A DNA stretch of 18,059 nt, from assembly GCA_028711875.1 (NCBI GenBank), contig JAQTRJ010000007.1:1-18059 (forward strand). Direction: 5' to 3'. Numbering within the stretch: the stretch's first letter is position 1; every line of letters begins with the position of its first letter. Under the pieces are notes generated by a model. The model was given only the letters and a program-made list of their open reading frames with translations. It did no database searches and was not told the origin of the DNA. The position numbers and the translations under genes are program-made. Origin of the DNA: a bacterium (lineage in GTDB: Bacteria > Electryoneota > RPQS01). Below, piece after piece: positions 6,863 through 18,059 of the stretch.

Positions 6863-7058
6863 ATAAAGAGTGAATCTGGGAAGAAAGTGGAAGTGTCCGA
6901 TGGATGGGACTTGGAATCGCTGGTTTGAGCAGAAATAAGACTGCTCCGTGCGGCCGGCGCGGCGATCGGGTGTGATAGGTCGCGAGACCGTTGTTTTCCT
7001 ATCGAGTTTGGTTTTTCAACGCATGTTCACAAGAAGAGGACAATGGAAGGAACCGGAC
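6863..7058 (+). other. Long untranslated leader region of the cupredoxin gene
   Basis: The 368 bp between the lipoprotein stop and the cupredoxin start hold a terminator, the candidate promoter and this leader. I see no convincing gene in it. There is some pairing potential: GATAGG (6974-6979) with CCTATC (6998-7003), enclosing GGTCGCGAGACC. I could not match any known riboswitch class. A GGAAGG Shine-Dalgarno sequence at 7045-7050 fixes the downstream start. Confidence 0.3.
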
Positions 7059-7688
7059 ATGAGCCAAAGCATGAAAGCTGTTTTGTTGTTGGTGATCGCT
7101 GCCGCATCGGGAGGACATCTTTGGGCGGCACAGCATACCGTCACGGTCCAGAATTTCTCGTTCGATCCGGCGAATCTTTCGATAGCGCACGGCGACACGG
7201 TGATCTGGCAATGCACCAGTGGATTCCACAACGTGCATCATTTGGGGACTCCCAGTTTATTCGGAAACACCGCCGCAAGCTCGCCCTGGACCTATATGTT
7301 CGCGTTCAGCGACATTGGCGACAGCGTCTTTCACTATGATTGTGAAATCCACCCGGCTATGATGCAGGGCACGGTTACGGTGCTGCCCTTGTCCGCACCC
7401 GAGCCGCGAACGCCAGCCTCCGGGACGTCCCACTCGCTCGGTCAGAACTATCCGAATCCGTTCAACCCAACCACGAGTCTCGTCTTCGATCTGAGCGAAC
7501 CGGGGCATGCCCGTCTCGCCGTCTTTAACGTGCTGGGTGAGCAGGTGGCGGTGCTGGCGGAAGGCGAGTTCACCGCCGGGCGGCACGAGTTCGCTTTCGA
7601 TGGCACCGGTCTCGCGTCGGGAGTTTATATCTATCGGCTGGAAACCAACGGCCGAGTCGCCGAGAAAAAGATGGTGATGATGAAGTAG
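7059..7688 (+). CDS. Secreted cupredoxin (plastocyanin/amicyanin-like) with type IX sorting domain
   Basis: A 209-residue protein. The signal peptide covers about 1-24 (cleavage near W-A-A). A cupredoxin domain at about 25-109 has type-1 copper ligands His57 (F-H-N-V-H), Cys95, His98 and Met101. The C-x2-H-x2-M spacing is that of amicyanin-type sites. A roughly 85-residue C-terminal domain (125-209) begins S-L-G-Q-N-Y-P-N-P-F-N-P-T-T, a FlgD/Por-type secretion tail typical of FCB bacteria that directs export by the type IX system. The inferred role is an exported or surface copper electron carrier, or a copper-binding protein. The start at 7059 is chosen for its GGAAGG at 8-bp spacing and because the signal peptide begins there; the in-frame GTG at 6948 and ATG at 7023 lack this. 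No redox partner gene is adjacent. Confidence 0.88.
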   Translation: MSQSMKAVLLLVIAAASGGHLWAAQHTVTVQNFSFDPANLSIAHGDTVIWQCTSGFHNVHHLGTPSLFGNTAASSPWTYMFAFSDIGDSVFHYDCEIHPAMMQGTVTVLPLSAPEPRTPASGTSHSLGQNYPNPFNPTTSLVFDLSEPGHARLAVFNVLGEQVAVLAEGEFTAGRHEFAFDGTGLASGVYIYRLETNGRVAEKKMVMMK

Positions 7689-7798: not shown

Positions 7799-7841
7799 AG
7801 TGAAGGAGAGTTTTCCGTTGTCATTCTGGACACCGCGCGAC

Positions 7842-7863
7842 CCCACACGCCGGAGCGTGTGGG
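7842..7863 (+). repeat. Short palindromic repeat, family B copy 1
   Basis: A 9-bp perfect stem, CCCACACGC/GCGTGTGGG, with loop CGGA, followed by CTAGTG. It matches the hairpin at 17255-17276 on both flanks. A stem position that is C:G here is G:C there, so pairing is conserved. Confidence 0.8.
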
Positions 7864-8007
7864 CTAGTGCCGGTTCTTGAAAGGTCGTGTCGTTGTTGCC
7901 GCGGCCGCCGCCGCATCCTTAGCGCGAAAACCTTCTTGGAAGCAGCACCAGTGGGTGAAGGAGCGCGGGCGTCCGGAACCTCGATTCACCTGAACTCCCC
8001 CATCTAA
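7864..8007. other. Non-coding stretch between hairpin repeats
   Basis: The 467 bp from 7689 to 8155 contain no gene that I can support. They hold the terminator, three family A hairpins, one family B hairpin and the promoter/operator of the next operon. This middle part includes a GC-rich CCGCGGCCGCCGCCGC tract near 7898 and nothing else recognisable. Confidence 0.5.
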
Positions 8008-14150: not shown

Positions 14151-15782
14151 TTACAGATTCATCAGTTCGGTTCGCGGATAGTAATGATTCAAGATACTCT
14201 CGACGTTCCAGCCTGCGCGGGCCATGGCGGCGGCTCCGAGTTGGCAGAGACCCACGCCGTGACCCCAGCCGCCGCCGGAAAGGATGATCCGATCGGCGCG
14301 CTCGTCCACAACGAAAAATGACGACGGCAGATGCGATTTCGAAAGCGCGCGGCGGATATTGAGTTCGCCGTAGATATGCTGCGTTCCCGCTTCGCCGACG
14401 ATTTCCAGAATTAAAATTCTTCCCGACTTGCCACGGCGAATCGCGTTGAGTTCTTGCACACGGCCAACATCGTGACCGGTTTTCTCGGCAATCAAATCGC
14501 CCAACTCCTTCCTCGTGTATTCGAAAGTCCAACGGAAGAGCGGATCTTTATCCCACGGATCGGGATAGGGATGAAGTCGCGGATTGCACCACGCGGGCGA
14601 ATCACTCTTCAAAAATTCTCGCGCGCTGTCTTCACGGGAGAGATCGGGAACGGAGAACTCCCCGCAGGCGCGCACTGTAAAATAGTCCGGGCCTTCACCG
14701 CCCCACGCCGCTTCGTAGCGCTCGGACACGCCGCCGCACGATTTCGCGTAGCGGGCGTCCACCACGCGAGGAAGCGATGAACGATGAACGATGAACGATG
14801 AAGCATCGTTCGGTAGCGCCGCACGGCTATGCGCTCCAGTCTCCCTCCACTTTGTGGGGGGATTAAGGGGGGTAGACAAGGGAGAAACGAGAATTATTCC
14901 GGATGACTCTCGAATCGGAGCGACGACGGCGTCTGCTTCGCGTAAAATTCCCTGATAGCATTGACAGTGATCGTCATGGCAGAGATCAAAGCCGTCGGCG
15001 AAGTGGTGGCGGTTCGCGGTGGCGAGCACGGTCGAGCGCGCGGCGATGGCCTGCGCCTGCGAAAACGCGGCGGGCAGATCGCTGCGCATTTCGCTGCCGA
15101 CCGCGCTTTCGAGATAGCTTTCGAGTTCGAGCCGGTTCACGGCGGAGAGTCCCGCGCCGCCCGGATGAAATAGCCGCAGGCTTCCGCGATAGTCGAGCGA
15201 TTCCTTGCGCTGCCAGTGAAAGCCGCGGCCGATGGGAACGTCGTGCAGGCGAAAGAAACTCTCGGGCGAAAGCGGCGTCGTCCAGATTTCGAGCGCGCGG
15301 CCCGAAAAACTTCCGAAGCGAAACTCGAACGGTAAATCAGGCACGGCGCGGTCGAGCCGCACGAGCGCGAGACCCAGCGGATCCAGGCCCGGCATGGCGC
15401 GCAGCTCGTCGAGAGTTTTTTCCGCGTCACTCAGCGAGTCGAGCTTCACGATCGGCCACCACACGCGAATATCGAATTGTTGCCCGCCGCTCTCCCACGT
15501 TCGTCCGGCTTCCACGATGTCCACGTCGAATTTTTGCGCAAGTTCTTTCGGTTCGCTGAGAGTCCTTTCGGCGTGCGCGGGCGAAAGCGACTCGCAAAGG
15601 CGGATCGCATAGTCGTGCTGCCGTCGTCCCGGTTCGGAGAAAGCCTCGAAGGCTCCGGCGGTTTCGTCGAGGGTCAGAAAGCGGCAGCAATCCACGCGGC
15701 AGCGCACGAGAAATTCACCCGCGAATTCGCCGCGAATCGCCGGTTCATCCCACAAGAGGCCGATGTGAACTTCGAGAGACAT
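14151..15782 (-). CDS. SpoIID/LytB-domain protein, interrupted in frame by a repeat element
   Basis: A 543-residue protein. Residues 195-300 and 340-535 form a SpoIID/LytB domain: Y-L-E-S-A-V-G-S-E-M with putative catalytic Glu231, Q-A-Q-A-I-A-A-R-S (242-250), C-H-D-D-H-C-Q-C-Y (268-276), S-C-G-G (348-351) and the C-terminal W-G-H-G-V-G-L-C-Q-L-G-A-A-A-M-A (506-521). SpoIID cleaves peptidoglycan glycan strands as a lytic transglycosylase, and homologues in non-sporulating bacteria are thought to remodel the wall. The N-terminal 190 residues form extra domains that I do not recognise. There is no signal peptide or membrane segment, which is odd for a wall enzyme; the start could be mis-set or export may differ. 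About 40 residues (near 299-339) are encoded by repeat DNA at 14775-14870 and separate S-G-I-I-L-V from D-A-R-Y-A-K-S-C-G-G, which are normally almost adjacent. The frame is intact. Confidence 0.85.
   Translation of the reverse strand: MSLEVHIGLLWDEPAIRGEFAGEFLVRCRVDCCRFLTLDETAGAFEAFSEPGRRQHDYAIRLCESLSPAHAERTLSEPKELAQKFDVDIVEAGRTWESGGQQFDIRVWWPIVKLDSLSDAEKTLDELRAMPGLDPLGLALVRLDRAVPDLPFEFRFGSFSGRALEIWTTPLSPESFFRLHDVPIGRGFHWQRKESLDYRGSLRLFHPGGAGLSAVNRLELESYLESAVGSEMRSDLPAAFSQAQAIAARSTVLATANRHHFADGFDLCHDDHCQCYQGILREADAVVAPIRESSGIILVSPLSTPLNPPTKWRETGAHSRAALPNDASSFIVHRSSLPRVVDARYAKSCGGVSERYEAAWGGEGPDYFTVRACGEFSVPDLSREDSAREFLKSDSPAWCNPRLHPYPDPWDKDPLFRWTFEYTRKELGDLIAEKTGHDVGRVQELNAIRRGKSGRILILEIVGEAGTQHIYGELNIRRALSKSHLPSSFFVVDERADRIILSGGGWGHGVGLCQLGAAAMARAGWNVESILNHYYPRTELMNL
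14775..14802. repeat. Four perfect tandem copies of a 7-bp unit inside the SpoIID-domain gene
   Basis: The unit CGATGAA is repeated four times without error (28 bp), followed by GCATCGTTCG, which can pair with the last unit. It lies 10 bp from the palindromic element at 14813-14870. Slippage by one unit would shift the reading frame. Confidence 0.9.
14813..14870 (+). repeat. 58-bp composite palindromic element (family A, long form) in coding sequence
   Basis: It runs from GTAGCGC to GGATTAAGGGG and contains the hairpin TCCCTCCAC/GTGGGGGGA (loop TTT, one G-T pair). By hand alignment about 51 of 58 positions match the element at 17653-17709 in opposite orientation. Here it is read on the minus strand as part of the SpoIID-domain protein, encoding L-N-P-P-T-K-W-R-E-T-G-A-H; the other copy would encode L-N-P-P-T-E-W-R-E-T-R-A-H in the same frame. 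Confidence 0.85.
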
Positions 15783-15818: not shown

Positions 15819-15828
15819 GAATTCTGTC

Positions 15829-15857
15829 TCCCTCCACCTCGTGGGGGGATGAAGGGG
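15829..15857 (+). repeat. Short palindromic repeat, family A copy 5
   Basis: The hairpin TCCCTCCAC/GTGGGGGGA with loop CTC is followed by TGAAGGGG. It has the same one-wobble stem as the copies at 14842 and 17661. It lies between the SpoIID-domain gene start and the end of the gene at 16337-15894. Confidence 0.8.
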
Positions 15858-16363: not shown

Positions 16364-16392
16364 GGGCGGGTTGCGCTTCGCTTAACCCGCCC
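16364..16392. repeat. Hairpin repeat of GTAGGGGC type
   Basis: GGGCGGGTT (16364-16372) pairs with AACCCGCCC (16384-16392) around an 11-nt centre containing GCGCTTCGC, followed by CCTAC. It shares the outer GGGC...GCCCCTAC form with the palindrome at 12859-12878. On the minus strand it lies between the methyltransferase stop and the next gene start. Confidence 0.7.
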
Positions 16393-16412
16393 CTACAGCA
16401 TTATGCTAAATT

Positions 16413-17229: not shown

Positions 17230-17254
17230 TCACTTTTCAGTAGTATCACACGAC

Positions 17255-17276
17255 CCGACACGCGGGAGCGTGTCGG
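17255..17276 (+). repeat. Short palindromic repeat, family B copy 3
   Basis: CCGACACGC/GCGTGTCGG is a 9-bp perfect stem with loop GGGA, flanked by CGACC and CTAGTG, as in copy 1 at 7842-7863. The stem base that differs between the two copies is matched by the complementary change in the other arm. Confidence 0.8.
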
Positions 17277-17283
17277 CTAGTGG

Positions 17284-17634
17284 CTAAATGAATTCTATGG
17301 CTCTCTTCGGTATCCAGCCATGCTCGCCGGAATCGGTGGTGCAAAGTAGCCAGCCGGATTCTTCGCATTCAACAGAGAGGATATCTCCTTCGTTCACGGT
17401 CAATTCTCGCGCATCATAATCACGCAGAAGTATGGCATGATCGCCGTGAATTTCAAGATAAGATTCGGGAGTCCAACTGCTCTTGCCGCGCGGATCGGTG
17501 CACCAAATCCAGCCGGGAAATTCGTCGTCGTGTTTGCCGAGCGCGAGCGCCTCGCCTTTGGAAGCGCAAAGCGGATCGGAGCAAGAAGCAGTGTAAGATT
17601 CGACAACGCGGATTCTGCCACGCTCCTCTTTCAT
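17284..17634 (-). CDS. Tandem SH3-domain protein
   Basis: A 116-residue soluble protein made of two SH3-like beta-barrels, about 8-62 (with G-W-I-W-C-T-D at 41-47 and S-W-T-P-E-S-Y-L) and 66-115 (L-R-D-Y-D-A-R-E-L-T-V, E-E-S-G-W-L-L-C and G-W-I-P). Similar bacterial proteins are annotated as ligand-binding SH3 proteins; the ligand is unknown. There is no signal peptide, so it is probably cytoplasmic. Its ATG lies within a pair of 7-bp tandem units (17630-17643), whose GGATGAAGG part also offers a ribosome site. It is separated from its neighbours by repeats on both sides, so its operon context is unclear. Confidence 0.8.
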   Translation of the reverse strand: MKEERGRIRVVESYTASCSDPLCASKGEALALGKHDDEFPGWIWCTDPRGKSSWTPESYLEIHGDHAILLRDYDARELTVNEGDILSVECEESGWLLCTTDSGEHGWIPKRAIEFI

Positions 17635-17652: not shown

Positions 17653-17709
17653 CCCCTTAATCCCCCCACAGAGTGGAGGGAGACCAGAGCGCACGCAGTG
17701 CAGCGCTAC
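17653..17709 (-). repeat. 57-bp composite palindromic element (family A, long form)
   Basis: It is the same element as at 14813-14870, in the opposite orientation, with the hairpin TCCCCCCAC/GTGGAGGGA (17661-17681, loop AGA). Its GTAGCGC end supplies the TAG stop codon of the symporter gene (17708-17706), so it appears to define that gene's 3' end. It fills most of the gap between the symporter and SH3-protein genes. Confidence 0.85.
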
Positions 17710-18059
17710 GCATGAGTCTTAAGAAATCCCGATTTCCATAAGCCGACGGCGCCGCCGATGGTGACGAGATACCAGAACGCCGCGGCGGGAGCGTTCAGCA
17801 GAACGGTGTAGCCAATGGCGAGCGTGAGCCCGACAACGAGCATCACCCCCCACAGCCAGCCGGCGAGTGGTCGCGCAATTCGCTCGGGAGTCGGAGTAAC
17901 CTGTCCCTGCGCGCGTGAATATTTTCTAACCACCTCCCACACACCGACGGGCCGGGTGCGACGATAGAAATCGGCGAGCGCGTTCATCCGCGCGGGTCTG
18001 GTCAGAACCGTGACGAGAATCGACACCGCCGCCGAGCCGCAGCTGATGATGAGCAGCCG
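17706..18059 (-). CDS. Probable sodium:solute symporter, C-terminal part (5' end outside window)
   Basis: The frame is open to the right edge, and 117 residues are visible. A membrane segment at the edge (L-L-I-I-S-C-G-S-A-A-V-S-I-L-V-T-V-L-T-R-P) is followed by N-A-L-A-D-F-Y-R-R-T-R-P-V-G-V-W, a pattern I associate with the C-terminal tail of SSS-family symporters from FCB bacteria (...T-x-P-x-x-x-x-x-L-x-x-F-Y-x-x-x-R-P-x-G-x-W). Two more membrane segments complete the end (about 70-88 and 93-108). The substrate is unknown. The assignment rests on that single motif, since the conserved transport core is outside the window. The stop codon lies in a repeat element. Confidence 0.6.
   Translation of the reverse strand, partial: RLLIISCGSAAVSILVTVLTRPARMNALADFYRRTRPVGVWEVVRKYSRAQGQVTPTPERIARPLAGWLWGVMLVVGLTLAIGYTVLLNAPAAAFWYLVTIGGAVGLWKSGFLKTHA

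Follow-up and report, generated by a model that had tools for sequence, protein, structure and literature searches.

How did a stretch of dispersed repeat DNA come to be translated as part of a SpoIID protein, and what could have carried it there? The question is raised by a window of 18,059 nucleotides, the whole stretch of DNA analysed here (contig JAQTRJ010000007.1 of assembly GCA_028711875.1), in which a minus-strand gene at 14151..15782 encodes a 543-residue protein with a SpoIID/LytB domain. The first-pass annotation, made from the letters of the DNA, had described four CGATGAA units and a 58-bp palindromic element inserted in frame in this gene, and had likened their behaviour to that of the Rickettsia palindromic elements (RPEs).

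The host protein carries both the domain and the fold of SpoIID/LytB proteins: its open reading frame matches Pfam PF08486 (E 6.6e-17), and the SpoIID structures 5i1t and 4rwr are the nearest to it by VIA-align and fold matching, with VIA-align returning no dependable family besides the SpoIID and SPOR folds. The proposed placement of the organism in the FCB group is plausible, since related proteins occur in metagenome-assembled genomes of Calditrichaeota, KSB1 and Zixibacteria, although the presence of 'Candidatus Puniceispirillum sp.' among the closest matches does not fit it. A C-terminal QNYPNPFNP stretch in the open reading frame at 6948-7688 resembles a type IX secretion sorting tail.

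A repeat mosaic gained in frame in a SpoIID gene

In the following, G000 denotes the genome of the window, G001 a genome of the same genus and other G-numbers further genomes included in the comparison. Alignment with G001 delimits a net in-frame insertion of 35 codons, corresponding to residues 302-336 of the host protein and to 105 nt at 14775..14879 on the minus strand. The insert is flanked on both sides by protein matching G001, and the flanks of the homologues show no loss. As the annotation had proposed, the insert is repeat DNA gained in frame; the empty site is seen in G001. Three repeats lie within the 105-nt gap. The heptamer array at 14775..14802 (minus), recognized from its sequence and its matches elsewhere in the genome, consists of four CGATGAA units that read FIVHRSS on the coding strand. 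It is followed at 14813..14834 (plus) by a 22-nt REP-like palindrome with GTAG at one end; its length falls in the 20-40 bp range of GTAG-tagged REPs, and it is present in multiple dispersed copies at other loci of the genome. The third component, at 14840..14870 (minus), is a 31-nt palindrome of the form CCCCTTNATCCCCCCAC-loop-GTGGAGGGAGA, with C6/G6 architecture, designated PAL, which was identified by pattern and by matches in its own genome and is able to form a hairpin.

A near-copy of the PAL and REP parts, and of these parts only, is found on the plus strand at 17653..17709 in non-coding DNA, between two minus-strand open reading frames (17284-17634 and 17706-18059), with 88% identity over 58 nt (E 1.5e-13), in agreement with the earlier observation. 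The TAG stop of the open reading frame at 17706-18059 is supplied by the GTAG tag of this REP copy (17706-17709). A third PAL copy lies just upstream of the SpoIID gene (15826..15857, minus), and the PAL pattern (at most three mismatches) thus has three matches in the window, compared with none in 200 dinucleotide shuffles. Folding of PAL yields a hairpin (z -1.94) and the non-coding PAL+REP compound folds more strongly (z -3.06); the fold of the in-gene REP is no better than that of shuffled sequences (z 0.14). Further palindromes of the window include one at 16365-16395 with a GTAG end on the minus strand, GGGCGGGTT...AACCCGCCCCTAC, and another, ACACGC-GGAGCGTGT, present in two copies (7838-7869 and 17251-17282) that are 91% identical.

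A search of the genome with the insert as query gave at least 53 matches (40 of 91 candidates scored), and these fall in separate blocks of the query; the insert is consequently a mosaic of three dispersed families, namely PAL, the GTAG-tagged REP-like palindrome and the heptamer array. Where the annotation saw a 58-bp element and heptamers, the insert thus has three adjoining families. PAL and REP are nevertheless found again as a compound, with three copies in G000 and others in G001 and G003. Since G001 and G008 carry a single heptamer-like unit at the insertion site, the heptamer part may be the product of local growth and not necessarily of a separate arrival.

The same loop has been filled more than once. 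Among the 11 SpoIID homologues of the family and order (G000-G002 and G005-G012; the matches in G003 and G004 do not span the loop in the orthologue), eight are devoid of repeat DNA at this position, and the other three carry different repeat DNA: the mosaic of the window, two heptamer blocks in G002 and a PAL in G005. Homologues having a similar loop of ordinary sequence were not found in this set, and the extra loop residues of G002 and G005 are themselves repeat DNA. The G002 spoIID gene contains repeat-like inserts in four additional places.

The structure model of the host protein (mean pLDDT 75.2, pTM 0.79, 10 sequences) assigns pLDDT values below 50 to residues 303-335, immediately after the strand formed by residues 296-300, and the insert is accordingly predicted to sit in a disordered loop. 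Over the 285 codons shared by G000 and G001, dN is 0.15 and dS 0.80. With G008 as the reference, 14 unique replacements were counted in the protein with the insert and 15 in that without it, 32 sites being unresolved. Taken together, these values indicate a gene under constraint that changes no faster with the insert than without it. The insert itself is presumably neutral.

Copies, reading frames and other host genes

The 53 matches and two heptamer arrays gave 55 copies that were examined in the genome of the window, a lower bound in which the three families are mixed and cluster neighbours are included, the copies therefore not being independent. By the preset rule, which called a copy in-gene when the codon score exceeded 0.12 on both flanks, none of the 55 lies in a gene; a looser cut together with homologue support gives two, contrary to the heavy coding use implied by the comparison with RPEs. 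These two copies, in the SpoIID gene (scores 0.19 and 0.09) and in a gene for a type ISP restriction enzyme (0.08 and 0.24), were counted because homologues confirm them. The type ISP gene (L013, G000:C17, 1-2220; PF18135) harbours three in-frame repeat inserts without counterpart in G031 and G032; in G012, other sequence occupies the first two sites and is partly alike at the second.

It had also been noted that both copies of the element in the window are open in the same frame. This turns out to be uninformative, as most PAL frames are open: among 17 PAL copies of the genome, 15-16 are open in each of four frames and nine in each of the remaining two. Open PAL frames are mostly a matter of composition. 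A favoured frame is not seen either, since PAL occurs in several reading frames and in both orientations, and its peptides vary accordingly (TPLNPPTKWRET, SPPTSSGGTKGG, SGLPPYPMGGLRGE and SPHSVGGLRGV). The heptamer lacks stop codons on one strand; on the other, TGA turns up in all frames. The survival of those insertions that keep the frame accounts for both the variety of PAL frames and the strand pattern of the heptamer, and a special coding design is unnecessary. Target-site duplications were looked for, with no clear case.

Repeat inserts are also found in genes of other genomes. Six paralogues in G002 (L130, L135, L139, L140, L147 and L149), one of which was scanned and matched DUF7948 in Pfam, each contain two in-frame PALs, which were probably multiplied along with the gene. 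They contribute 12 of the 15 copies that pass a cut of 0 among 73 in G002, the others being two in spoIID and a doubtful one; this count covers 40 of 67 scored candidates, three of 76 listed places being without sequence, and the rule missed mnmE. The MnmE GTPase gene of G002 nevertheless contains C6/G6 palindromes and heptamers, that of G008 contains C6/G6 palindromes, and the QueG gene of G008 contains heptamers with a net gain of six residues. A further count placed 12 of 33 rows within genes, with palindromes counted on both strands, corresponding to nine distinct loci. The Pfam scan covered QueG, a DAO-family oxidoreductase and MnmE, all of which it supports, and L111, for which it gave no match; the gene of the window was already known, and L079, L093, L113 and L118 are the other four loci.

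DUF559 genes, palindromes and the origin of the insert

In two genomes of one genus, the mnmE gene holds more than a solo palindrome. The MnmE proteins of G006 (G006:C82, L323; 598 residues) and G009 (G009:C73, L325; 642 residues) share an arrangement in which a DUF559 nuclease domain is set in frame at a loop, with Pfam TrmE_N split into two stretches on either side of it and no splicing domain listed by Pfam. Both DUF559 copies have C6/G6 palindromes at their two ends, which match each other when inverted. A PAL profile that included G002 copies did not call these ends, and they are PAL-like by their C6/G6 architecture. A Caulobacter DUF559 protein has been described as a Vsr-like PD-(D/E)XK endonuclease (PMC12907096).

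The mnmE arrangement led to a wider survey of DUF559 genes, which covered 41 genomes and gave 46 matches in 25 of them. An earlier PAL profile found PAL at nine of 19 DUF559 genes of the family and order and at none of 36 controls, but it included G002 copies lying beside DUF559 genes; for this reason, we relied on a profile built from the genome of the window and applied to the other genomes of the family and order, with the two DUF559 loci of its own genome left out. At E<=0.1, PAL was detected within 300 nt of seven of the 17 DUF559 genes (the remaining ten had no match at this level) and of one of the 36 controls (p 8e-4), as well as of two of 13 DUF559 genes further out. At E<=1 the counts rise to 12 of 17 and eight of 13, with the controls unchanged at one of 36. 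Control genes with PAL inside (L032, L037, L292, L295 and L296) had initially been omitted; L032, L037 and L292 were restored, and L295 and L296 stayed out.

The association is also seen when the flanks of each gene are compared with each other. Among the best 32 of the 46 DUF559 matches, the repeats on the two sides of the gene match at 25 loci, and at 27 of 35 when three more are added (the other 11 being partial or weak), with a threshold set at the level of 95% of cross-locus pairs, inverted or direct, at which two tests lead one to expect about three in 32. None of 14 SpoIID and QueG controls passed, their maxima being 18 (inverted) and 23 (direct) against a level of 36, and none of 10000 permutations reached the total of inverted matches observed for DUF559. 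The stronger match is inverted at 13 of the 32 loci and direct at 19. A simple model of terminal inverted repeats for DUF559 was rejected, the mean for a locus's own direct match being 64.0 and that for its own inverted match 38.9. In one genome representing an independent phylum, L362 just passes (37 against 36) and L363 fails. In G002, a PAL core, ACATCCAGT, is common to the flank of one DUF559 gene and spoIID, and a second, AGCTTGACT, lies beside another DUF559 gene and occurs three times in mnmE. The two DUF559 genes found in the genome of the window have other cores, and neither has the PAL core of the window. Separately, a gene for an N6/N4 DNA methylase in G003 (L319, G003:C434) contains a DUF559 domain together with a Hint domain below the Pfam cut-off, has the appearance of an intein that carries a DUF559 homing nuclease and also contains a PAL-like peptide.

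These observations suggest a joint explanation that we regard as probable, namely that repeat DNA was captured in frame in the SpoIID gene and that solo PALs are likely to be non-autonomous partners of DUF559 genes. A PAL and a GTAG-type REP palindrome would have entered the SpoIID loop, and a short heptamer run would have expanded beside them. The insert would have persisted because the result was free of stops, a multiple of three in length and placed in a loop that tolerates changes in length, selection presumably keeping only such in-frame, stop-free loop insertions. PAL belongs to a class of palindromes often found on the flanks of genes for DUF559, a Vsr-like nuclease, so that solo PALs would probably stand to these genes as REPs stand to RAYTs. 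The nuclease is thus a candidate mover of PAL, RAYTs may move the REP part, and the repeats as a whole are presumably mobile. Our confidence in this explanation is tempered by the mnmE ends, whose likeness to PAL is only one of architecture, and by RAYT flanks, which also match, at five of 12 loci.

The latter point bears on a rather unlikely but more conventional explanation, that of an ordinary intragenic REP/BIME, with RAYT (Y1 HUH) transposases as the movers of both palindromes and the link to DUF559 as a by-product of the location of DUF559 genes in repeat-rich intergenic DNA. Five Y1_Tnp matches were found in the genome of the window, with palindrome arrays visible by eye beside several of them, and one (L283) adjoins the repeat that is also present in the type ISP gene; moreover, the GTAG motif is cleaved by an E. 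coli RAYT (PMC3733652). Matched flanks at five of 12 RAYT loci in either test, four of which exceed 36 in the inverted one, are expected for REPtrons. On the other hand, PAL lies within 300 nt of none of the nine RAYT genes in the control rows, as opposed to seven of 17 DUF559 genes, the DUF559 domain between PAL-like ends in mnmE is situated inside a real gene and not in intergenic DNA, and two PAL cores found within genes of G002 are those beside two of its DUF559 genes. The REP of the window, at up to two mismatches, was found at none of seven RAYT loci, five of them from its own, incomplete assembly. Each of the RAYT-like genes L280, L282, L284 and L286 has its own set of palindrome arrays around it.

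Two other explanations carry far less weight. It seems highly improbable that selection favoured the extra loop because it gave SpoIID a new property. Three genera do have repeat DNA in this loop, and purifying selection acts on the gene; against this, the peptide in the loop is not the same from one genus to the next, disorder is predicted for the loop, unrelated proteins contain identical repeat peptides and most of the copies examined lie outside genes. Even less credible is a wrong joining of repeat-rich ends in what is a metagenome assembly of 367 contigs; repeats are indeed where assemblers fail, but the reading frame runs unbroken through the insert, both of its flanks match homologues without loss, and inserts of the same kind are present in the long-contig assemblies G002 and G008.

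Returning to in-frame capture with DUF559 as the candidate partner, a broader proposal can be put forward more tentatively, at somewhat less than even confidence: DUF559 and C6/G6 palindromes may form a REPtron-like mobile system lacking a transposase of any usual kind, from which solo palindromes, or in some cases the complete nuclease gene, insert in frame into protein genes and are kept as translated loops without splicing, the SpoIID insert being a solo example. If the link to DUF559 is true, a widespread class of palindromes gains a candidate enzyme, and another route from mobile DNA to protein is added to those of REP/RAYT and RPE. Orthologous loops that have been filled repeatedly offer a natural experiment on where proteins tolerate new sequence.

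Comparison with known mobile repeats

Heptamers such as CGATGAA have a parallel in cyanobacteria, in which short tandem units of seven bases, of another sequence, are dispersed in the genome. In-frame palindromes in genes are well described in Rickettsia (PMC10969869, PMC3767692), and RPEs and the elements of the window are alike in being dispersed palindromic DNA that enters real genes in frame and in that orthologues carry different elements close to a common site (PMC3767692, PMC10969869). The SpoIID insert also shares with RPEs an in-frame insertion that leaves the gene intact. The RPE-like behaviour first suggested for it holds as regards mostly non-coding palindromic DNA, in-frame entry into a loop and homologues without the insert, and fails as regards a favoured frame and heavy coding use: nearly half of the first-reported RPEs were in open reading frames (PMC10969869), compared with two of 55 copies here. 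RPEs, reported as about 100-150 bp long, further differ from the 31-nt PAL and 22-nt REP in having one conserved encoded peptide, PAL giving several, and, unlike them, the window elements have no favoured frame and form a mosaic with heptamers. The insert is RPE-like in behaviour, which falls short of identifying it as an RPE.

Nor had such behaviour been peculiar to Rickettsia until now, as the annotation implied, since a 2013 report had described GTAG and CGTC REPs within open reading frames in several other species, with Xanthomonas providing REP insertions near the same recB site in two species (PMC3733652). The 22-nt GTAG palindrome of the insert resembles the GTAG REP/RAYT system (REPtron) in its many dispersed copies and clusters and in its use in open reading frames, and REPs in which the GTAG tag gives a TAG stop to the next open reading frame, as at 17706-17709, are likewise on record (PMC3733652). 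PAL, on the contrary, is without a GTAG tag, and the gene that it adjoins is DUF559 and not RAYT.

For DUF559 itself, two precedents are relevant. A DUF559 gene of Thermosynechococcus has been assigned to the EDxHD homing endonucleases, under intein-containing genes (PMC9403480). The G003 methylase gene, with its DUF559 and sub-cut-off Hint domains, is similar to this, unlike the mnmE genes of G006 and G009, with their PAL-like palindromic ends and no Pfam splicing domain. In Legionella, recombination hot spots coincide with repeated segments that contain a transposase and DUF559; DUF559 adjoins a transposase there, unlike here, and the passages describing these segments mention no palindromes (PMC12308824). 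A literature search, which left most subscription papers outside its reach, found no title or abstract that joins DUF559 with palindromes, and the recurrence of PAL-type palindromes beside DUF559 genes may be new. As an in-frame palindrome, the SpoIID insert adds one more case to a known kind; what goes beyond that kind is its composition as a mosaic, the fact that identical loops were filled repeatedly and the association with DUF559, including the whole nuclease domain read in frame in mnmE.
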